Positions 38,027 through 56,700 of a DNA stretch of 64,000 nt are shown here, piece by piece. The notes below the pieces were generated by a model. The model made no database searches. It saw only the letters and a program-made list of their open reading frames with translations, and was not told where the DNA came from. A program made the position numbers and the translations under genes. Position 1 is the stretch's first letter. The number at the start of each line of letters is the position of its first letter. The stretch is from Branchiostoma floridae (taxonomy: Eukaryota; Chordata; Leptocardii; Amphioxiformes; Branchiostomatidae). The stretch lies in NCBI RefSeq assembly GCF_000003815.2, contig NC_049990.1, positions 11,809,549 to 11,873,548 on the forward strand, written 5' to 3'.

Positions 38027-41000
38027 ATGGCGGAACCTGATGAGAAATCTCCGCTTGTAAAAAGAAGAAACTCGTCTGAAGACGAGGAAGAGTTAACAGG
38101 ATGCGGCGCCAGTGCAGCCTGTGATCCAAGGAGAGCCCTGCACCGTTTCCTGGTGCTTTGGCTCATATGTTTCCTCAGTTTCGGTGAGTTTGTTCTACTC
38201 GCAGATATCAATGAAGGGGAGGGGGTAAATTTTACTGTACTACTAGTACTAGTACTCTCACCTCTCAAATAGAAGTACCCCCTGGAATAAAAGTACCCCC
38301 CGGAAAAATCTTCAAAATCTAATAAAAGTACCCCCTGGAATAAAAGTACCCCCCGGAAAAATACCAAATTGACATGTAAACTGTGTCCATACTACTTCTG
38401 TCCAAGAGAAGATGATCAGGTAGGTTCTTTTTACTTATTTATGCCTGAGTACCAATGGTTTTTGGTGTATTTTGGGCAACTTGTCAGCTCATATCTTAGC
38501 TCATAGCTCAAGATTTACCTTTACATCTTAAAAATTTGTAGTAAGTAAATAATAAACTAATTGGACATTGTAAAAACACTTATGGCAAAAATTATTTTTG
38601 GCAAACATGACTATGCATGACTACATGTACATGTTTATAAAATAAATAACCCCCAGTTCAGAAAGAAAGCTGGACAGCTCTTACAGCCTTCCAGAGCAAT
38701 CCCCAGTGTAATTCCTACAAGTTGGAGCTCTTTCATTCATGCCATTCATTGTACTTCATCTATTATCTAGGGGAACAGTTCACTTGAATGCAGGGAAAGA
38801 ACACATTTCAAGTTAGAAAAAGATTCCATATTTATAGAAATACAAAAGGGTATTTTGTAATATTGTATTTCAAAATACTGAGTGGAAACTTAGAGACAAT
38901 AGTAAATTGTTATTTGGCCATGTTTATCTTTAGAAAAGGTTATGGAGTAGTAACCAAAATAAACACAACTTCCCCAAATGTTTCGATCATAGACTCAGCA
39001 CTGTAGCCACTCCCCCAAAAGTGTTACATGCATGAGAGACCTGAGAACTCTGTTGGAGCAAGGATAATCTTTTAGTTTTACAACTTCACAAGCAGCATAA
39101 ACTAGAATTTTTTCTCTATCCACAACTTTACCTGCAAGTTGGTAAAAAGAAATACATTTTAGTGTAGAAGTTACCAGGGAAAGATCGACATATTGCTGAG
39201 AATGCGACATCTAACAGAAATGTTGTGATGGTTCCCATGCCAACGGCACACCCCTAGTAGACTTCCCGGCTCCATGATCACAGGCGGCACCGGCTCACAA
39301 AGCTTGAGTTATTAGAACTCCGCCCCCTTGGAGGCGTGTTCCATTAGGAACACGCCTCCATACCTACATGGGCTGGCATCACTGCCGGCCTCAAACAATG
39401 TAAACAGAGCTAAAATACATCGGAAATTCGAAGAGAACACACTTGAAACCTTTCCATATCTTTATTGGATTTTTTTTTACTTGTCCAAGATTAGTTGCAC
39501 ACTTCTAAATTTACTTGCTGGTTAATGTGAAATCAAGCTAGTGGGTAATTTGAGACTTTTGCCGGAAAAGCTCTCAAGCTGCTTCTCTCAAGAAAACTCC
39601 GCCCTTCGGGGGGCGTTGGTCTCTGAGCAGGCCCCTGCACGCGACACTACTGACTGTCGGCAACTTTCAACAATGTAAACAACAGATTTACGTAAGGAAA
39701 ATGATACTTTTTAGATAGATTTAGTGAATTTTGAGCAAAAATACTGCGGAAATATGGGCAGAAAATTCCAACTTTCAATATTTGTGAGTTCCCTGGTTAG
39801 TCAAAAAAGCCCAAATTTGAAAAAAAAATAAACGTACCGTCTAAAATAAGGACGTACCGGGTGGATTCTGAGGCGGAAAAAAATAAACGTACCGGTACGT
39901 TTATTTGAGAGGTGAGAGTAGTAGTTTTCCTATGGCCAAAACAATTGTCCTTACGTCCTTGGAACAGAGACAGCATTTTTAACGTAACGTAGATCATGAT
40001 AAATTGTCCCTTTACCAAAGACAAGAAAATGTGATTTGTAAATACAGGAACGGTTAGACTCTAGAGAAAAGTTAGATCTAAGTTTATCCACAATATTGAA
40101 TATGAAAGTTTCCAGATAATATAATACATATGGTAACATATTGATTACTGTATGTTTTCAGGAAGTTATTTTTGCTATGACAACCCAGCAGCCCTCCAGT
40201 CCCAGATCAAGAAGGCAAGTATACAGTATACCCTGCCATGTTGTACATGTGGATGTCGGACGTGACGCTAAAAATGATTCAGACCAGCTCGGCACAACAC
40301 CTATGTCAGCAACTCAGCCCAACGCCCCAACTCAAACCCAAACCATAACCTTGGCCGGGTTGACCAACTGGTGGTGGGCTGATTTGGTAAAGGACCAAAT
40401 TGTCCTGATCTCATGTTGTTAGCCACCAAGACAGTAGATTAATCTTTATATATATATATAATTATAAATTGTTGCTGTATGCTCATATTTCCTTCATTGA
40501 AAACACAGACAATGAGGATTTGTTCATACAGCTAGAACAATGGTTTTGGTTTGAAGCAGGCCACTGCTTTTCTCACAGTGAACTGCTTTGCTACAAAACT
40601 ACAATCTGCAATATAACCAGCCTTGTCCTTCAAGTTCAACTAATGAATATTGAGCAGAGTATGACTATGTTGAAGTTCAGAATATAGAGTAATAAGAATT
40701 GAATCCTCCTGTTCTTACCTTTTTTGCAAGTAAGATGGCCTTTGTAACATTCAATGGGATGTATCTGCATTGCTTGGTTAAAATAATTTCAATAAATGTA
40801 AAAATGAAGGAAAGAATGAAAAAGAAGTGAGGTACTAGTAGCAAAATGAGATGACTTTGTTTTGACAAGCTAACACAGTTTATTTTTGCAGGACATGCAT
40901 GTGAACACAGGAACTTTCATGACCCTGTATTCCTGGTACTCCTGGCCAAATGTCATCCTCTGCTTCTTTGGGGGATTTCTGCTGGACAGAGTCTTTGGTA

Positions 41001-44000
41001 TCAGGTAATGACAATTGTTGTATTCACATCAGTGTATAATGGATTTCTCTGATGGTTTTGATCGAGCTTGTTTAAGAGATTTATTAAGTTAAGAGATTTA
41101 TTGACTGAAAACTTTGTTCATTTAAGTCCATTAAGAAAATAAGATTTTAAGGCAATCAATGATAAAAGGACAAGTTAACAACAATAATCAATGTGCTTAC
41201 TTGATAACCGATGTTAGGCAAACTTAAATTAAACCTTTCTATTTCTGTATGAAAAAAACATGATTTCTTTTTCAAAGTTATTTGTACATATGGATGTAGT
41301 TCAGCAAGCATGCATCAGTATTCATCCTTATGAAAGATTGACATGTACATGTAATTTGATGTTGTTTTTTTCCAGACTAGGAACTATCATCTTCAGTTTG
41401 TTTGTCCTGGCTGGGCAGGTAAGAACACCATACATACCATTTTTTTCTCATTTGTACTCAAGTCATTTTACACTCAAACTGCATGATGGTTTTTATTTGA
41501 TGCTGTATGCTCATATTCCCCTCACTGGAAACACTGACAATGAGGATTTTGTTGATACAGCTAGAACAATGGTTTTGGTTTGAAGCAGGCCGCTGCGTTC
41601 TCACAGTGAACTGCTTTGCTACAAAACTACAGTTTGCTGTACATCTTTTTCCATTGAACATTTACAGAAAACCTATGAATGTGTAGAAACAATATATCGT
41701 TGGTGCATATTTTCCAGTGTGTCTTTGCTCTTGGGGCCCAACTGAACCTGTTCTGGCTTATGGAAGCTGGTAGATTTATCTTTGGGTGAGTAAATGCCAA
41801 AAACTGCTTTGCACATCAAATACGACCTCAATGTAAAGTTGTCTCAACCTTATTGGTGCCTAAGTATACAGTATGCATAGCAGATACATTTCTGCCTTAG
41901 ATTTAGAATGCTGTTTTTGTTTCGAAGTTACATAGCCTTCAAAAGTCGTCAGAAAGTCATGCCATGTTTTAGCATTGCCTAAAAGCAGTTTTACTGAATA
42001 ACGTAACATTTGACCCGTCTTGCAAAGTGTCTGGAGGTAAATGTTGTGCTTTTAAAGCTTGTATTGATGTGTTTTAGGTATTCAATGCTTGTCTCATGTC
42101 TTGAATACCACAATATTTTTATGTCAGTGGGTATAAATGAGCATGAAGTTATAGACCAATTACAACTATAAAAAAAATGATGTAGCAAGTATTTAAACTT
42201 CCACTGGTATACAGGTAATATCGTAAAAGCATTAGTATGAAGAATGGATGGATCAAAGGTTTTTTAAACTTATTCTGCATTTCTAGCCTTGGAAGTGACT
42301 CTTTGGCTATAGCCCAGAACAACTATGCTGTCCTCTGGTTTAAGAATAAAGAACTAAACATGGCCTGTGGTCTTCAAGTTAGCATTTCCAGAGTGGTAAG
42401 CCATGGACTGGACTAGATTTTGGCAGCAATTCAAAGTTAGTGTGAAATGTGTTCCCCTATTTTTCAACTTTGAATGCCAGAAATCACAAATGTTGAGCAC
42501 ATTGAGCACAGAATTGTGTAATTTTTTCGACCTGTTTTTCTCTTATTTAGACATGTTACAGCTGTGGTCTTTGAACTGCTGCTAAAAAGGATTATTTATC
42601 CTTCCATAACTTATGTGGTGGCAGCCTCTTGTTCATAATTAACTCCCTGCATGTTTCTTCTGCACATACTAAACCTGTCCCTTTCCCCTCTGCTTCCAGG
42701 ATTGGTGGTGAATCACTCGCTGTTGCACAAAACACGTACGCTGTAACCTGGTTCCGAGGGAAAGAGTTAAACATGGTGTTTGGACTCCAGCTCAGTTTCT
42801 CTCGAGTTGTGAGTATTTTCAGCAAAATCTGCCTATTGAGTCGATGAGGAGCCTTGCGCTTCCCAGCTACTTTCATCTTTAATTTGTCCATACATTTGGA
42901 AATATACATGTACTTTTGAATGTGTTTGTGGTTGGAGTAATTTCCAATGTAGATGTAAATGGAGCTCAAGGTACAATACAATTTAAAAAAACTGACAGTG
43001 AATCTATCAAAGTAACAAACCAGGTTTGCAACATGTTATAAATGGTGCAACAGCTTGTTAATGTTATGATGAAAATTGTCAACAATCTTTGCCCACTAAA
43101 CTTCTGCATGTGGGTGCATGTGGTGCTGCAGTATCTATTGTAAGTTTTATTGCTTATTTTAGTTGAATGTAGGGCTGTCTCTGGGACCCGTCCCTCTGTC
43201 CCTGGACAGAAGTTTTCTTGATGTAACAGCAATTTCACCCCGTCCAGAAAATCTTAATGACATGAAATCAATGAAAAATACATGTATATTTTTGTAAGAT
43301 TGAAATTTAACACATTTAACAATGAAAAATTAAAAACATTGGTTCAAAAACAGTGAATAAAGAAAATAAAAGAGCTGGAGGCAACCCTAATTGACTAAAA
43401 GTTTTAAATACAAAGATATTTTGATGTAACCATGTCCTTTATTTTCCGTTCCAGGGTAGCACAGTGAACATGAATGTGATGAGCCCTGTGTACAAGTGGA
43501 TATCTGGTTATGTAGGGGAAGGGTACATCACCCTGGGGTATGCTCTGTGGGTAGGTGCGGGGACCTGTGTGCTATCACTGTTGTGTGGCCTGCTGCTGGG
43601 GTACTACGACAAGAGGGCTGCACGGATACTCAAGAGAGATGCCGGCAAAACTGGTTAGTACTTCATTCAATCATTCCATTCATCCCATCCATCTGTCCTT
43701 CGATCCATCCATCCGTCCATCCATCCATCCATCCATCCAACCATCCATCCATTTGTTGTCTTATAAAGAGTTATCTTATCACAGACAATAACTTCTCACC
43801 ACAAATGAGTGATACATGTTTAACTTAATTCTTGTGTGTGTTTGTATCTGTCTTTGTGTGTTCCACAATTTGCAATATACTAAATGCAGCATTGCCATAG
43901 ACATTTACATGTTATAGTGTTCTTATTGTTTGTCAGTGGGACTTAATTGTCACAAACAGTGAATATAAGGGACGGAAGTCTAAAACATTTTTTTCTGTCC

Positions 44001-47000
44001 GTAGGTGAAGTGATTCGGATAACTGATGTGAAGGATTTCCCGGCCACATTCTGGCTGATTACAGTCATCTGTGTGGCATACTACGTGGCTGTGTTCCCCT
44101 TCATCGGACTGGGGCTGTGAGTTCAGCACACTACATTATGTTAACGTTGTGCTTCTTAAATGCCTCTTAAACATGATTTATTGGCTACAATTGCAATGCT
44201 ATACTGTGAAATGTGATAGATTTCACAGTTCTCCTTCTTCTTCTTCTTCTTTCGTACTGCCATGCCTCAAGGATGATGTTCTTGTATATTCACTTCAATA
44301 TTTATCCTTTACTTGACAGTGTTTTCTTTGAAGAGAAGTTTGACCTGAATCCAACTTCAGCCAATGCTGTGAACAGGTTAGTGAAGATATATTCATTGAA
44401 TGTTTTTGTATATGTCTGGTGCATCCCTTTTTATGTGTGTTTGTCAGTTCCGCACAAACCATTCTTACTACCAGTCTTGGACTCTAGGTACAAACTGCAT
44501 AAGACCAAAATGATAGGTTTGATCAACTCACACTGGGATGGAACCTTATTCTTTTTCGGTTGGAGCTAAATACATGATACCTTAATGCTTGTTTTCCAGT
44601 TTGGTATACATTATCTCGGCTGGTGCGTCCCCTGTCCTGGGGTTCCTGGTAGACAAGACAGGGAAGAACGTGTTCTGGGTCATCCTGGCCATCCTGGTGA
44701 CCCTGGCCTGTCACATGATGTTAGCCTTCACCTTCTGGAACCCATACATAGCCATGAGCATCATGGGAGTGTCATACTCACTCCTGGCATGTGCACTCTG
44801 GCCTATTGTTGGTGGGTGTTCTTTTCTTTATATGTATACATGTACATGTATATGAGTTATATGATAGAGTCGATTCCATATTACCGAGAGGGTGTTTCTT
44901 GCCTTTTGTTCTAACAATTTGGAAATCTTTGTAACAATCTAACTGTGATAAATAACTGTTTAGAACTATTTACAACATCTATGTGACGTTGTAAATGTTT
45001 CTATAGTATTCAAACATGTTAGGAACATTTCTAACATCAAATACATTATTTCTGATAGTTTCTAAACTGTTCCAACATAGATGCATCATTTGTGATCACA
45101 TGTTCGAACATGGAAACAATATGATGAAACTGGGTCAGTGGGCTGGGAAGAGGGCAATTCACACATCCCTGCCAAGTGCAGGAAATTATGTCTGTCTGCC
45201 ACCTTCTCACAAAAGACTCACTAGTGTATACTGAAGAAAATCTGCCAAACAAAGGACCAAGCTTAGCAGCTTTGTTTATGGGGTCAATAAAAGTTTTTAT
45301 GGAGGGGAAAAATGACACAAAATGTTGGAACATGTTGGAACAATAACAAAAACACATAGATGTTTGCAAATTGTTCTAAATAAAGAGATAATGATATCAT
45401 TACTTTCCCAAATGTTCCAACAAATATAAAAAGGTTCAAACATGTTTAAACTTTCATTTTGAAATGTTTGAACAATTTCGAACTTTAGTGACTGAAATGT
45501 TCTTTTACTCAAAATAGTTCAAACTTATTACAAATATTATTTCAAAACCATCTCGGTGACTTGGAATTGACTCTAGTGTAATATATATGACACAACGCAG
45601 TGTAATCCGTATCACCCAAGGTACCAGCCTGACCGTGGGAAGAATCGCCCAAAGGCTGGAGGGTGATCCGACCCGTGGGGAGTGGGGGGCTGGGCCCGAG
45701 GGTGATACGGAATACACTGCGTTGTATTTTATTTATCTATTTATTTATTTATTTATTATACCCACCAGAGAAAATGAACGTTTCAATGCAAAATGCACCA
45801 GAAGTTGAGAAAATCTGATGTCCTTGAACAAAGAAAGGTATGAACAGGAATCCCCAAGTCCAGATCTAGTATTCAAATTTTTTAGTGTGAGTCATTTTGA
45901 TTCATTCAATGGGCGCCAGTGTCATACAACAAGTAAAACCTCATGTAATATGGCAAGTTATCAATCAGTCTGTGAGTGAGTATTCTATTACATTTTTGTA
46001 TCTATCAAGCTAGTATGAATTCAAATGTTGAGGCATTTTTTTTTATTACTTAACATTTTGATGACTAAAAAATTATTAAGTCATTGTTGTTGCTGTAGAA
46101 TAAGTGAAAGTGAACTAATGAATTTCTTTTCTCCATGTAGCATTTATAATCCCAGAGAACCAGCTGGGAACAGCCTACGGCTTCATGCAGTCCATCCAGA
46201 ACCTTGGACTGGCTGTCATCTCTATTGTAGCAGGGTCTATTGTAGACCAGAAGGGGTATCTACTGCTGGAAGTGTTCTTCCTGGCCTGGCTATGTCTGGC
46301 ACTGATCGCAGGAGTAGTGCTGTACTTAGTAGATGCAGTCAGGGGTGAGTTTTACTAACAACAAGACAAAAGTATAGTTTGTAATCTTCACTTTTCATTC
46401 AGAACACCGTTTATAGTGTGTATCATACCCCAGATGGCTAACTATTGGGCAATTATACCCATTATACTATTCCGATCTTTGACCGAAAAGAATANNNNNN
46501 NNNNNNNNNNNNNNNNNNNNNNNNNNNNNNNNNNNNNNNNNNNNNNNNNNNNNNNNNNNNNNNNNNNNNNNNNNNNNNNNNNNNNNNNNNNNNNNNNNNN
46601 NNNNNNNNNNNNNNNNNNNNNNNNNNNNNNNNNNNNNNNNNNNNNNNNNNNNNNNNNNNNNNNNNNNNNNNNNNNNNNNNNNNNNNNNNNNNNNNNNNNN
46701 NNNNNNNNNNNNNNNNNNNNNNNNNNNNNNNNNNNNNNNNNNNNNNNNNNNNNNNNNNNNNNNNNNNNNNNNNNNNNNNNNNNNNNNNNNNNNNNNNNNN
46801 NNNNNNNNNNNNNNNNNNNNNNNNNNNNNNNNNNNNNNNNNNNNNNNNNNNNNNNNNNNNNNNNNNNNNNNNNNNNNNNNNNNNNNNNNNNNNNNNNNNN
46901 NNNNNNNNNNNNNNNNNNNNNNNNNNNNNNNNNNNNNNNNNNNNNNNNNNNNNNNNNNNNNNNNNNNNNNNNNNNNNNNNNNNNNNNNNNNNNNNNNNNN

Positions 47001-47991
47001 NNNTATCTAACTTTGTGTTCACCACCTTTATACATCCTCCTATGCAATGCAGGGACATCCAACAGCCAAACTGCCTGTCTGGATGTGCCCTGCTCTTTCA
47101 ACCATCACCCTTAGTTCCTGACCGCCCTGCTTATAAATATCAATGAGGTTACCCTTATACGAGACTGCATTTGAAAACGGAAAGCCTTTTCTCTGATTGG
47201 CCGACAGCTGGTTTGGGGGGGGGCGGGCGTCCACAGGAACTAAGAATGACGGTTGAAAGAGCAGGGCACATCCAGACAGGCAGTTTGGCTGTTGAATGTC
47301 CCTGCGTAGGAGTATGCCTTTATATATCAATTCATAGTTGGGGATAGAAATCTTCTGTTATCTCCTCATTGATACTGGCAAAAGATAGTAGATTCCATCT
47401 GAAATGTGTAACTGTTTCTAAACTTATTTCTGTACATCAGGAGGAGCTCTGAACATGTCTACATGGGAGAGGGATGCACAAGAGGAGGCTGAAGAGAAGG
47501 CCAAAGCCGCAGAACAGGACGAAAGAGTCAGATTTAAACCTCGCTCTGCATTTGCACTGAGGAACAGGTAAATGTTACTCTCCTTTTTATTTGTTTACTT
47601 GCAAGTGCTACAAACACTACACAGACTTGTTGTAGCAGTGTATCTGATTACCCTACAACAATTATAGGGACAACAAGTACATTGTAGATAATCAGATAAT
47701 TAATAGTTACACATATCTAAATTTTACTTTATCATTTACAGTATCTTTGTATGTTTTGTTTTTTTACAAATTCTGCAAAAGCTAAAGAAACCCTGTTTAA
47801 AAGTAGTTTATCATTTGAAGTTTAAAATCATTGCATTTCATCGAAAGTCCAGAATTTTTATGAATGTTTGCATTTGACCAAGTTTTCATGTTTGTTTCCC
47901 CTTCAGGTTCTACTCCCGTATTGGTGCCAAGCTGCCAGACCATTTCGACATCCACACCTCGAGTTTCTTCAGAAGAGGAGTTACACAGTAG
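38027..47991 (+). CDS. MFSD1: MFSD1, lysosomal major facilitator superfamily transporter
   Basis: MFSD1 is a 12-helix lysosomal carrier; in mammals it exports dipeptides and works with the GLMP subunit. Exons: 38027-38183, 40162-40214, 40892-41004, 41376-41418, 41718-41785, one of two alternative exon 6 copies, 43455-43653, 44005-44116, 44320-44376, 44600-44811, 46141-46344, 47441-47567, 47907-47991. With either exon 6 the frame is 1539 nt, 512 aa. Family motifs: [63 protein letters not shown] (321-327), SLLACALWP and [18 protein letters not shown]. An acidic dileucine-like signal (EKSPLV, 6-11) stands where vertebrates have the lysosomal sorting motif. ATG 38027 has a strong context (AAAATGG); an in-frame ATG at 37971 is less likely. 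The C-terminal tail is longer than in human. A 509-base gap lies in intron 11. Confidence 0.95.
38253..39920. mobile_element. 1.67-kb inverted-repeat element in MFSD1 intron 1
   Basis: Left end TACTCTCACCTCTCAAATA; the right end is its complement TATTTGAGAGGTGAGAGTA. Just inside lie short AAGTACCCCC (left) and ACGTACCGG (right) repeats. A perfect 14-bp-arm hairpin stands at 39329-39360 (TGGAGGCGTGTTCC, loop ATTA). No convincing coding frame, so probably a non-autonomous DNA transposon. Confidence 0.75.
40215..40220 (+). other. GC-type splice donor of MFSD1 intron 2
   Basis: Exon 2 ends AAGAAG and is followed by GCAAGT, the usual GC-AG donor form. Only this cut gives QSQIKK joined to DMHVNTGTF, the family sequence, in phase 0. 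The acceptor is TTTTTGCAG at 40891. Confidence 0.88.
40465..41645. repeat. Direct repeat pair (about 150 bp) in MFSD1 introns 2 and 4
   Basis: 40475-40620 and 41497-41640 share GCTGTATGCTCATAT, GACAATGAGGAT, ATACAGCTAGAACAATGG and CTACAAAACTACA in order. The copies flank exons 3 and 4, about 1.0 kb apart. Confidence 0.85.
42287..42395 (+). CDS. MFSD1: MFSD1 exon 6a (divergent alternative copy)
   Basis: 109 nt, residues 145-181 of the product. It codes for [16 protein letters not shown], then [10 protein letters not shown] and [11 protein letters not shown]. The acceptor (TTCTGCATTTCTAG) and donor (GTG|GTAAGC) are both sound. It aligns without gaps to exon 6b but changes the conserved GGES to GSDS. 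It is open, so not obviously decaying. Whether it is used is unknown. Confidence 0.8.
42700..42808 (+). CDS. MFSD1: MFSD1 exon 6b (canonical copy)
   Basis: 109 nt with the same phases as exon 6a. It codes for [16 protein letters not shown], then [10 protein letters not shown] and [11 protein letters not shown], close to the conserved family sequence around helix 4. Acceptor CTCTGCTTCCAG, donor GTT|GTGAGT. Confidence 0.92.
43683..43752. repeat. CCAT tetranucleotide repeat
   Basis: CATCCATC-type run just below MFSD1 exon 7. Confidence 0.95.
44867..45573. mobile_element. 707-bp inverted-repeat element, copy 1
   Basis: Ends GAGTCGATTCCA and the complement of GAGTCAATTCCA, each flanked by TA. 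The interior has many short AACATGTT/GTTCCAAC palindromic bits and no coding frame. It is in MFSD1 intron 10. A second copy starts at 63064. Confidence 0.8.
45592..45725. mobile_element. 134-bp MITE
   Basis: Ends ACAACGCAGTGTAATCCGTA and its near-exact complement. GC-rich middle, no coding capacity. It sits 18 bp after the 707-bp element in MFSD1 intron 10. Confidence 0.85.
46495..47003. other. Assembly gap (509 N)
   Basis: Unknown bases in MFSD1 intron 11. No coding exon is missing: exons 11 and 12 join in frame. Confidence 1.
47033..47316. mobile_element. 284-bp foldback MITE with 8-bp target duplication
   Basis: Long arms: CAGGGACATCCAACAGCCAA with the matching complement near the right end, and CTCTTTCAACC against GGTTGAAAGAG. 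Flanked by CCTTTATA on both sides (47025-47032, 47317-47324). hAT-like by duplication size. Non-coding; 29 bp from the gap. Confidence 0.88.
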
Positions 47992-48643: not shown

Positions 48644-48788
48644 AGATGTTGCTGTAAATGACTTTTATGATTGTTTTCTAAGGTGCCTTAGCTGTAATAA
48701 AATGCAATGGTCAGTCCACCCACCTCGGTCCACCCAATCATGAACTTTACAATGATTTCTATTACCCGTGCCTGAGAAGAGGTGAATG

Positions 48789-49185
48789 GTGTTCAATACA
48801 CATTCTCGTGACAACAAATACCATTTTCTAAACCTTTTGGTGTCCAATACACATTCTCATGACAACAAATACCATTTTCTAAACCTTTTGGTGTCCAATA
48901 CACATTCTCATGACAACAAATACCATTTTCTAAACCTTTTGGTGTCCAATACACATTCTCATGACAACAAATACCATTTTCTAAACCTTTTGGTGTCCAA
49001 TACACATTCTCATGACAACAAATACCATTTTCTAAACCTTTTGGTGTTCAATACACATTCTCATGACAACAAATACCATTTTCTAAACCTTTTGGTGTTC
49101 AATACACATTCCCATGACAACAAATACCATTTCTAAACCTTTTGGTGTCCAATACACATTCTCCTAACGACAAATACCATTTTCT
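48789..49185. repeat. 51-bp minisatellite, about eight units
   Basis: Units of CAATACACATTCTCATGACA plus ACAAATACCATTTTCTAAAC and CTTTTGGTGT, near-identical except for the last two. Because 51 is a multiple of three, a spurious frame stays open through it. No spacers, so not CRISPR. Confidence 0.95.
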
Positions 49186-49199
49186 TAACATCTTTCTTG

Positions 49200-50740: not shown

Positions 50741-53700
50741 ATGGCAGCTTCAAGTTCCAGGGCACAACCGGTAGGTCGCAATTTTTTACTTGATATCTAA
50801 TCCAAATTAAATTTGGTAAAGATGAGATAAAACATGTAACGTTATCGTTATGTGTTTTGACAATGTTTTGGCCGGGGGTGATAACTTACAGATTATATAC
50901 AATATGAACACAGACAAGTGAATTATATTCTTAGGCCCCATGCTCAATATCATCATTGTAATGTAATGCAATGAAAATATGAGCACGAATATCAATAAGA
51001 AAGGGTAATATGCATCATTCTGATTGACATGGCGAACTACATTCCTTATGACCCTTTAAGAGCAAATGTCTGTAAGGATCAAACAATGGTGGCAAAGGTC
51101 AAAAAATAGATTTGGCTCATATTCTGCACAGTGATAGCACTTGGTCCACAACCCCTCAAAATAGCTTTCTTTTAGATCAAAACTCCTTGTTGCCATGGTA
51201 ACGGGCAAACAAAGTTTTCTTGCCATTTTCCCCAATTTTCGCATCTCAAAAACACAGAAGTTACTATAGCATATTTTACGGCACTGTCTCGGCAACACCT
51301 TTAAACCTATCATCAAAACAAAACAAGATCTAAATAAACCAACATTTTGGCTTTTTAAAAATTGTTGTGAAATTTCCAAAGTCGTACATTTTAGTTCTTG
51401 GGCAGCCTGAAAACAGTGCAATGTTTCAAGCTTAAAAAAAATGTGATTTTTGGCCCAACTTTGTAACGCTATAAGTGCCGCTCTGGTACTTTTTTTGGCT
51501 TGAAATTTGTACCATATATAGATCATTAGAATATCTATCAAATGCATTGTTGCGAAGTTTGGGGTCTTGTTTGGTTGTCACGTGACTGTCCCTAAAAGTA
51601 GACCACTTTTTGTGTTTGTCAAAAATTGTGAACTTTAGCCATGTTTAAAGTACGCTACATGACGAAGTAAAATATATTTCTAAATCAACTTCTTATCAAA
51701 TGTGGATCTATGTATTACCTATCAAATAACTGCTTGTAGAGTTTCGGGTCATGACGTTTAGTCACGTGGTTGTCCCTGAAAGTATGCCATTTTTTGCATT
51801 TGAAAAATAATTGTGAATTTTAGCCATGTTCAACGTACGCTACGTGACGAAGTAAACAAGGATTCTTATTCAACTTCTGATCAAATATACATCTATGTAT
51901 TGTCTATCATATAAATGGTTGTAGAGTTTCGGATCATAATGTAAAGTCACGTGGTTGTCCCTGAAAGTAGGCCATTTTTTTGCATTTGACGAAAATTGTG
52001 AATTTTAGCCATGTTCATCGTACGCTACGTGACGAAGTAAACAAGGATTCTTATTCAACTTCTGATCAAATATACATCTATGTATTGTCTATCATATAAA
52101 TGGTTGTAGAGTTTCGGATCATAATGTAAAGTCACGTGGTTGTCCCTGAAAGTAGGCCATTTTTTTGCATTTGACGAAAATTGTGAATTTTAGCCATGTT
52201 CATCGTACGCTACGTGACGAAGTAAACAAGGATTCTTATTCAACTTCTGATCAAATATACATCTATGTATTGTCTATCATATAAATGGTTGTAGAGTTTC
52301 GGATCATAATGTAAAGTCACGTGGTTGTCCCTGAAAGTAGGCCATTTTTTGCATTTGACAAAAATTGTGACCTTTAGCCATGTTCAACGTACGCTAGATT
52401 GCGAAGCAAAAAAAAATTCTGATTCAACTTCCTGTCAAAGGTAAATCTATGTATTGGCTATCAAATGAATACTTGTAGAAAATTAGATCATGAAGTAAAG
52501 TCACGTGGTTGTCCTTGAAAGTAGGCCACTCTTTTCATTGGACGAAAATTGTGAATTTTCAAAGTACGCTACGTGTACCCTGGTATCCATAATACAGCCG
52601 TATTATAGTTCCCGGCTCTCTTTTGTCCTCTTCGCAGATACATATTTCACTCGTTCTCATTGAAATGTAAAAAATCCAGGCCTTATTGACTACATCATTT
52701 AGGTATAAGAGGATGTCCCTAGGGACACTTAAAAAGTGGGCAGCTTTTTTAACACCAGGTCAAATAGAAAGCTTCGAACAATGGTAACGTTCGTCACAGT
52801 CATTTCTGTACAACATTTTGTAAGCAAGGTGGGATACAAATGGCAGTCAACAACCCTTCCTTGTTTCTTTAGAAAGCCAGAAAAACTGTGCAGCGTCACA
52901 AAAACGGTCATTTCTTGTCTTATACGTGGATAATATAATCATGGCAACCATCGTACTCATGGTGGTAACGTTTGTTACAGAATTTGGCAACATGAATAAC
53001 CCACCTCACACAGCCTCCAAGATCAGTGACAGTACCGATCTGGCATTATCGGGCAAAGGGCCTGATCAGCTGGTTTCATCTACCGAACAATCATTCTGGG
53101 CACTGAATTGTTGCATTTTTGGCTACTATTTCAATTCTTCGTTTGTTCTCAGACAACAACCATTTTTTTACGGGGGTGAAATTCCACCCGTGGCTTAGAT
53201 AATCTTCCAAGCCATCAACCAAAATGAATCTTTTGGAAAACATTCCAGGGATTGTGGAAAAATGAAGGAACCTGTGATTTTGTCTAAAGTTTGCTGCAAA
53301 TCAAGTCGCAAAAGCAGGCGACAGCATTTTTACATTTAAATGAGAACGAGCCATTTGCGAAGAGGACAGAGGAGACTCGGGAGATATAATATAGCTGGAT
53401 ACCAGGCGGGATACTACGTGACGAAATTAAGAAGAATTCTGATTAAACTTCTGGTCAAATGTACATCTTTGTATTCTTAATTTTCTTTCTTCGAATAAAT
53501 GCTTGTCGAGTTTCGGGTCATGACATTTAGTCACATGGTTGTCCCTGAAGCCAGGTCACTTTATGTGCTCGACAAAAATTGTGAATTTGAGCGCATTATA
53601 GAACATAGCTGAATTTAAAACGACATCTTAGTTACATTATCAAAAATTGATATTTACAATTATAACAGAGTCATCGCTTAATTCAGCTTTAATTCAACAC

Positions 53701-56700
53701 TGTAAGCCCATTATAAGTCATTGTAGTACCAATATGATATGCATTGGACATTGACAATGTTGAAAGAAAGAAACTGTTCAAGAGACATCTTCTCCAAAGT
53801 AACAGAACCTCCTAACAGCATTTAGCTAACTATCTGCCCTACTTTAGGGAGCAACTGCACCGCAAAGAAAGACGACCCCAGGCCTTACTAACACTCATTC
53901 AACAGACAATGTTAAGGGCTACACATCATCAGAGTCAGTGCCAGTAAAGTATTTCAGTTCCCCAATTCGACAGATTTAACTACAGCCCTAAATGGCGATT
54001 TCTGGCCAAAAGCAAAATTTGACCTAATTTCAGGGACAACCACGTGACTAAAAGTCATGATCTGAAACTCTGCAAGCATTCATCTGATAGACAATACCTA
54101 GATGTACATTTGACTCGAAGTTGAATAAGAATTCTTGTTCACTTTGACACCCAGCGTACTTTGATGAAAGCTAGAATTCAAAATTTTCGTCAAATGCAAA
54201 AAATGGCCTACTTTCAGGGACAACCACGTGACTGAACGTCATGATCCGAAACTTTGCAAGCATTCATTAGCTAGACAATACATAGATGTACATTTGACTG
54301 GAAGTTAAATAAGAATCCTTGTTTACTTCGTCACGTAGCGTACGTTGAACATGGCTAAAATTCAAAATTTTCGTCAAATGCAGAAAATGGCCTACTTTCA
54401 GGGACAACCACGTGACTAAACGTCATGACCCGAAACTCTACAAGCATTTATTTGATAGGAAATACATAGATCCACATTTGATAAGAAGTTGATTTAGAAA
54501 TATATTTTACTTCGTCATGTAGCGTACTTTGAACATGGCTAAAGTTCACAATTTTCGACAAACACAAAAAGTGGTCTACTTTTAGGGACAGTCACGTGAC
54601 AACCAAACAAGACCCCAAACTTCGCAACAATGCATTTGATAGATATTCTAATGATCTATATATGGTACAAATTTCAAGCCAAAAAAAGTACCAGAGCGGC
54701 ACTTATAGCGTTACAAAGTTGGGCCAAAAATCACATTTTTTTTAAGCTTGAAACATTGCACTGTTTTCAGGCTGCCCAAGAACTAAAATGTACGACTTTG
54801 GAAATTTCACAACAATTTTTAAAAAGCCAAAATGTTGGTTTATTTAGATCTTGTTTTGTTTTGATGATAGGTTTAAAGGTGTTGCCGAGACAGTGCCGTA
54901 AAATATGCTATAGTAACTTCTGTGTTTTTGAGATGCGAAAATTGGGGAAAATGGCAAGAAAACTTTGTTTGCCCGTTACCATGGCAACAAGGAGTTTTGA
55001 TCTAAAAGAAAGCTATTTTGAGGGGTTGTGGACCAAGTACTATCACTGTGCAAAATATGAGCCAAATCTATTTTTTTACCTTTGCCACCATTGTTTGATC
55101 CTTACAGACATTTGCTCTTAAAATATTTCAAACACAAATACATCTCTGCTGGTTCATTGGCTGTAAAAGTTTTATAAAAAATCTCTATATCTATAATATG
55201 TTTCTGAATGAAGACTTTTATTGTGCTTTGAATGCTTACCGGGCTAATTGCAGGTCAAAACAAAAGAATGGTTCACAATATACTACAAGCTGTTTTAATC
55301 TTCTATTCTATGTGGATTACATTATCAACATGTTGTAGGGGGAATGCGGTTATGACTTCAGAGTTCAATGTGCCATGTTCACAACTTGTAGTTTGAAAAT
55401 TGTTATTGGAGTATCTCCAACACCCCTGTCATTAATTAGTATTACCGCTTACCGGTCCCTTGACCGGGGGTGGTCGTGGGGGCACTTAGCAGCTGAGCAC
55501 ACCTCCCTCCATCTCACCCTGTCGTGGGCCAGAGCTTGAGTTTTGGCAAGGGTCTGAGCTTGAGTTTTGGCAAGGGTCATTCCCGTCCACTCTTTGATGT
55601 TATCATCCCACTTCTTTCTCTGTATGCCTCGTCTTCTTTTCCCTTTGATTGCTCCTTGCAGGATGACCTTAGAGAGGCCCATGCTTCTTGTCACGTGACC
55701 GTACCACCTTAGTTTCCTTTATTACCTCCATGAAATGCCATGGAATGGAGGTTATATTTTCTGTTATGTGTCTCTGTCTGTGTAGATGATTACTCAAGAA
55801 CGGCTGGATGGATTGATTTCATGCTTGTTGTGTTGGTGGGGTGTGAAGAAAGCTCGAATCGATGAGATTTTGGGCGCCGTATCTGTCGTTATAATCGATG
55901 TAATAATATCAGAAATCACCCCTATATCTGCGATATATTGGAACAGTCATCGTGGTTTCCCTCTTTGTTAATCACCTTATCTCCAAGCAGGTGGTGAGGT
56001 GATTTGTTTCACCAGTGATAGCCCTGAACATATGTTTTTTTGGGGGGGATCAGTTGACAACAACTGTTTGGGGGAAACGATAGCCTCGACTCAAGAACGG
56101 CTGGATGGATTGGTTTCATACTTGATGTGTTGGTGGGGTGTGATGATAGCTGAAAGTGATTAGATTTTGGGCCCCGTATCTGTCGATATAATCAATGTAA
56201 TAATATAAGAAATCACCCCTATAACTGCGATATATTGGAACAGGCATCGTGGTTTCCCTCTTTGTTAATCACCTTATCTCCAGGCAGATGGTGAGGTGAT
56301 TTGTTTCGCTAGTGATAGCCATGAACATATGTTTTTTTTGATCAGTTGACAACAACTGTTTGGGGGAAACGATAGCCTCGACTCAAGAACGGCTGGGTGG
56401 ATTGGTTTCATACTTGATGTGTTGGTGGGGTGTGATGATAGCTGAAAGTGATTAGATTTTGGGCCCCATATCTGTCGTTATAATCAATGTAATAATATCA
56501 GAAATCACCCCTATATTTGCGATATACAGTTGACATCGTAGAACATCGGTTTGGGGGAACCAGACAGTTTTGAAAGTGATAATAAGTTGTATTTATGTAC
56601 TTGTGCTTTTAGGGACATGATGTATTATATTTCTTTTGTGCTGTTAGATGTTATGTGGTCCACCTTGCGTCACGCTGAAGTTTTGTTAGTATGTACTCGG

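Follow-up and report, generated by a model that had tools for sequence, protein, structure and literature searches.

The sixth coding exon of MFSD1 in the lancelet Branchiostoma floridae is followed by a second, similar exon, and the two copies, here called 6a and 6b, very probably go back to an old tandem duplication and are used one at a time. Read in this way from the sequence, the gene would encode a standard and a variant form of a dipeptide carrier. The interest of this case is beyond routine: both residues that clamp the substrate, in a site described only recently, lie in the swapped exon.

MFSD1 is a lysosomal dipeptide uniporter, which exports two-amino-acid peptides and works together with GLMP; the mouse MFSD1-GLMP complex is tight. 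In the window, by which we mean the whole 64-kb stretch of DNA that was analysed, the MFSD1 coding region is complete and lies on the + strand from 38027 to 47991. Spliced with one copy of exon 6, either 6a or 6b, the gene has 13 coding exons that give 1539 nt, corresponding to 512 amino acids and a stop. The splice model begins with the start codon at 38027 in exon 1 (38027..38183) and continues with exon 2 (40162..40214), exon 3 (40892..41004), exon 4 (41376..41418) and exon 5 (41718..41785), the last of which ends in phase 2 with the letters GG. Exon 6a (42287..42395) and exon 6b (42700..42808) come next, separated by an intron of 304 nt (42396..42699), and the acceptor of exon 7 (43455..43653) is common to both. 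The remaining part consists of exon 8 (44005..44116), exon 9 (44320..44376), exon 10 (44600..44811), exon 11 (46141..46344), exon 12 (47441..47567) and exon 13 with the stop codon (47907..47991), all on the + strand. The intron after exon 2 looks like a GC-AG intron, with the donor GCAAGT (40214-40220), and the intron between exons 11 and 12 includes 509 N at 46495-47003, which are either a gap or a masked stretch.

Some other features of the window were also recorded. Downstream of the MFSD1 stop codon there is a tandem repeat of 51 bp, with 7.9 copies and 96% matches (48787-49189). Further, units of about 185 bp form two arrays, at 51577-52559 and 54007-54600; by eye, the printed parts of their consensus sequences look partly reverse complementary, as if one array were inverted. 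An open stretch at 60234-60701 matches the last third of the Pfam 5-nucleotidase profile (PF06189, E 7.8e-30), while the other nine of the ten long open stretches scanned in the window matched no Pfam family.

Judged by its matches, the predicted lancelet protein is a clear MFSD1. When isoform A, containing 6a, is compared with solved structures (phmmer, E <= 0.001), one distinct sequence is found, mouse MFSD1 (8r8q), with E = 1.3e-188. Isoform B, containing 6b, is identical to the same mouse protein in 286 of 432 aligned columns, and both isoforms match Pfam MFS_1. The genome also encodes the GLMP family (PF15065), for which six matches lie within about 4 kb of one contig (C2, best E 1.1e-21); two of the six contain an internal stop, as an exon-by-exon match that is read into an intron may.

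Each of the two copies is 109 nt long, open, entered in phase 2, left in phase 0 and preceded by AG, and the donors are GTAAGC after 6a and GTGAGT after 6b. Aligned without gaps, they share 68 of 109 nucleotides (62%) and 25 of 37 residues. A first-pass annotation of this DNA had described two open 109-nt exons of equal phase, with good splice sites and a gapless alignment, and its coordinates, lengths and phases were all reproduced here.

To what extent such a resemblance could arise by chance was assessed with every open AG-109-GT stretch of the same phase on both strands of the window (n = 66, including 6a and 6b). Scored with BLOSUM62 against the 6b peptide, 6b itself reaches 188 and 6a 135, while the next best of the other 64 candidates has a score of only 5. 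The resemblance of 6a and 6b is far above chance, and the earlier claim of a tandem duplicated exon 6 in MFSD1 holds. Searches point in the same direction: tblastn with the 6b peptide as query finds 6a at E 2e-14, and when 14 MFSD1 exon peptides were searched against the window (E <= 0.01) a second place was found only for 6a and 6b. When the assembly as a whole (513,431,437 bases, 431 contigs; E <= 1) is searched, the 6a peptide has three matches: the two copies themselves and a distant MFS exon on another contig. A search with this exon would pass over any partial copies or retrocopies of the gene that lack exon 6, and such copies may exist. The low nucleotide identity of the copies (62%) speaks against an assembly artefact, or an allelic copy set in tandem, and we found nothing in favour of either. 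A blastn comparison of the two flanked stretches also speaks against it: the overlap of the stretches aside, direct duplication is confined to the aligned exons, and the strongest other match is inverted and 19 nt long (E 0.003). We give such an origin of the pair a practically negligible chance.

The two copies differ in 11 first, 6 second and 24 third codon positions. Of the 37 third positions 24 have changed, but of the 37 residues only 12. With NG86, dN is 0.23 and dS is not calculable, and by maximum likelihood (Biopython) dS is saturated, with a value of 23. When a pairwise codon model is fitted, divergence grows without bound and the optimal omega approaches zero, and fixing omega at 1 costs 2 delta lnL = 40.4; these rate estimates give no usable dN/dS beyond "well below 1".

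Since the pairwise model is blind to which copy is constrained, we simulated the divergence with an omega of its own for 6a, starting from a 6b-like ancestor and keeping 6b at omega 0.05, at seven levels of divergence with 1500 runs each. A run was counted as a match when it had at least 24 third-position differences, at most 17 differences in first plus second positions, and no stop. With a stand-in for the ancestor and a simple mutation model, a neutral 6a (omega 1) reproduces the observed pattern in none of 10,500 runs (0/1500 at each level), while a constrained 6a matches, at the best level, in 49% (omega 0.05), 28% (0.15), 15% (0.25) and 2.9% (0.5) of the runs, so that the contrast between omegas is large. 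The dN/dS of exon 6a had been named in the first-pass annotation as a point to check; neutral evolution is rejected by the simulations as well as by the codon model, and 6a has not decayed. Purifying selection has maintained both copies, and the pair is an old one. As weak constraint (omega 0.5) matches in up to 2.9% of the runs, relaxed selection on 6a retains a small probability.

Over the 37 residues of exon 6, identity to mouse is 31 for 6b and 23 for 6a, that is 6 versus 14 differences. Where the copies differ from each other (12 sites), the mouse residue is found in 6b alone at nine, in 6a alone at one and in neither at two (9 vs 1, two-sided P = 0.02). Because of this imbalance 6a is, by comparison with mouse, the derived and faster copy, without decay. 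Its many differences from mouse would also be expected if 6a were a relic, left without function after an old duplication. However, no neutral run reproduced the data and the splice sites and the frame of 6a are intact, and we consider a relic very improbable.

Next, we consider the reading frame. When 6a and 6b are both included, translation runs into a stop within 6b, at codon 185; from there it is 97 nt downstream to the 6b-7 junction and 1008 nt to the final exon junction. When both are skipped the stop comes at codon 149. It had been claimed earlier that both copies or neither would shift the frame and that one alone gives the protein of 512 amino acids, and this agrees with what we find for either copy. 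Nonsense-mediated decay is expected for premature stops of this kind, in both-included as well as both-skipped transcripts. In the mechanism that we propose, splicing factors would choose between 6a and 6b, and transcripts with both or neither copy would be destroyed by nonsense-mediated decay. From the frame and the sequence we infer that the two exons would be mutually exclusive in transcripts.

Mutual exclusion can also be enforced sterically or by RNA pairing, which is an optional and not a defining trait, and neither was found here. The 304-nt intron leaves ample room for joining 6a to 6b, and no U12-type sites are evident by eye. Pairing between introns 5-6, 6-7 and 5-7 was no better than in shuffled sequences, as 93, 54 and 31 of 100 shuffles, respectively, were as good or better. 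In all, 18 inverted repeats are listed in the sequence. The intron between the copies has a possible branch site, TACTAAAC, at 42667, and the motif TGCATG at 42648. The same motif, the Rbfox site, recurs at 43105 and 43115, giving three occurrences within 41786-43454 where 0.63 would be expected at the rate of the window. As nine motifs were examined, this excess around the exon pair is only a possible lead to a splicing factor.

That the stop at codon 185 comes far ahead of the final junction, and that no physical obstacle to joint 6a-6b splicing was found, would also fit a regulatory (poison) exon. Joint inclusion of 6a with 6b would then lower the output of the gene through frameshift and nonsense-mediated decay, and the protein form with 6a would be unimportant. 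However, such an exon would need no constraint at the protein level, while 6a retains its frame and its residues despite saturated synonymous sites, among them Asn157, Gln176 and Arg181, and we find this explanation quite unlikely.

What would the choice between 6a and 6b change in the protein? Mapped through the alignment with 8r8q, exon 6 corresponds to mouse residues 146-182. The region had been assigned to helix 4; this stands for a part of TM4, but by the residues named in the available text of PMC11252000 the exon also covers part of TM5. The same text names 13 residues of the MFSD1 pocket, of which Glu150, Gln176 and Arg181 fall within exon 6. Glu150 and Arg181 are described there as the clamps of the dipeptide, Glu150 for its N-terminus and Arg181 for its C-terminus, and a figure legend places N157 and F173 in the cytoplasmic gate (PMC11252000, available parts). 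For two residues the printed text (Asn57, Tyr389) and the legend (N157, Y369) disagree, and we adopted N157 and Tyr389, which fit the sequence.

Isoform B has the mouse residue at all 13 pocket positions. This includes Tyr56 and Tyr59, which by alignment are encoded in exon 2, as is also Asp60 (mouse numbering). Exon 6b is the copy of ancestral type, with Glu150, Asn157, Phe173, Gln176 and Arg181 all as in mouse. Isoform A agrees with mouse at 12 of the 13 pocket positions; the exception is E150D, and in the gate Phe173 is replaced by Cys (F173C), while Asn157, Gln176 and Arg181 are kept. That a conserved motif is altered in 6a had been noted before, and indeed GGES has become GSDS, with the change falling on Glu150. 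Because the other exons are shared, the pocket residues outside exon 6 are identical in both isoforms. Among the 21 positions compared, isoform B departs from mouse only at Lys287, which is Leu with either exon 6; this residue is not among the named pocket residues and makes a contact that stabilises the outward-open form, according to the part of PMC11252000 used here.

A further comparison, made by eye, is with part of a distant MFSD1-like MFS gene elsewhere in the genome (L004 1-3090, contig C15). Its residues at the positions of Asn157, Phe173 and Arg181 are the same, but Gly stands for Glu150 and Thr for Gln176, and there is an intron in another place. Given these two residues and the different place of the intron, this exon is unlikely to be the source of 6a. 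Phe173 is preserved even in this distant exon and lost in 6a.

The effect of changing binding-site residues in mouse MFSD1 has been assayed. In the available parts of PMC11252000 most binding-site mutants are reported to lose transport (E150A, R181A and Q176K among those selected), while Y56A keeps about half. A change of E150 is reported to affect both stability and transport, and E150A is without the characteristic unfolding trace. Together with the faster change of 6a relative to mouse, this would suit a 6a form that is a full-length protein without dipeptide transport, one that still folds, possibly binds GLMP and serves as a decoy or scaffold, its transport being lost through the altered Glu150 and Phe173. 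However, Asp retains the charge at position 150, the remaining 12 pocket residues are intact, and E150D is absent among the mutants described in the available text of PMC11252000. A form without transport therefore appears rather unlikely to us, though somewhat less so than a poison exon.

In the reading that we prefer, with two carriers made by exon choice, 6b would give the standard form. The 6a form would have the Glu150 clamp shortened by one methylene (Asp), Cys in place of Phe173 in the cytoplasmic gate and the Arg181 clamp retained. By chemical reasoning, Asp would retain the charge at a shorter length, and the gate should be looser with Cys than with Phe. Most likely this variant would still transport dipeptides, but its affinity, speed or preference for side chains would differ. 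That two of the three pocket residues of exon 6 are kept in 6a is in line with such fine tuning.

In the available part of PMC10990142, a glutamate numbered 151 is proposed to favour positively charged dipeptides. If this residue is taken as Glu150, it is this preference that the 6a form would most probably have changed.

The changes in 6a are not concentrated at the key residues. Two of five key residues are affected, where 1.6 would be expected from 12 random changes in 37 (P = 0.53), and the changes do not cluster significantly on one face of the helix, neither in TM4 (P = 0.14) nor in TM5 (P = 0.48). Because two of five is at the level of chance, altered transport by the 6a isoform is what we infer and not more. 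A more specific version of the idea is that the exon swap retunes a "molecular ruler": 6a would shorten the N-terminal clamp (E150D), loosen the gate (F173C) and hold the C-terminal clamp, so that the isoforms would take peptides differing in side chain or length, or work at different speeds, depending on tissue or stage. This we put forward tentatively, as a possibility with the odds somewhat against it.

Mutually exclusive tandem exons are best compared with the human ones. In the parts of two surveys available to us (PMC5740500, PMC9741552) the exon length is not divisible by three in 377 human clusters (60%), and in a human set of mutually exclusive exons 80.6% of the ligand residues are kept. 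Transporters are among the genes concerned, as PMC5740500 names SLC25A3 and SLC39A14. The lancelet MFSD1 pair is like these human pairs, as far as described there, in that adjacent homologous exons have equal length and phase, the length is not a multiple of three and most ligand residues are unchanged. It is unlike them in belonging to another gene and lineage and in being predicted from the sequence. Further, exon 6 of lancelet MFSD1 contains the two charged residues that clamp one substrate, together with gate residues, and one of the clamp residues is altered.

With vertebrate MFSD1, the lancelet gene shares the identical columns with mouse 8r8q counted above, the complete set of pocket residues in the 6b isoform and the presence of a GLMP gene in the genome. 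It differs in that the available text of PMC11252000 describes neither a second exon 6 nor an E150D or F173C form, and in having Leu for mouse Lys287. The word "isoform" is absent from the main text of that paper.

In the open-licence PMC literature we found no mutually exclusive exon pair in MFSD1 and no paper linking MFSD1 with Branchiostoma; an annotated isoform may exist among database gene models. In one study, in the part available, an MFSD1 transcript is placed in the class of skipped exons. The passages available from another paper concern MFSD11 instead. Relatives of MFSD1 were also looked for by pattern in other contigs. In viral contigs there was no match with the pattern from isoform B, and the pattern from the two-sequence alignment gave 97 matches, none of them a relative; the same was true of the 40 pattern matches in contigs of prokaryote genomes.

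The binding model of MFSD1 rests on Glu150 and Arg181 clamping the ends of the dipeptide and has so far been tested by disruptive mutants, according to the available parts of PMC11252000. In the lancelet, selection appears to have long kept a natural and conservative variant of the clamp site, by means of swapping the exon that holds both clamps. Exons 6a and 6b are a ready-made pair for testing what determines the length and the preference of the substrate. More generally, the pair would suggest that lysosomal peptide export is tunable by splicing.
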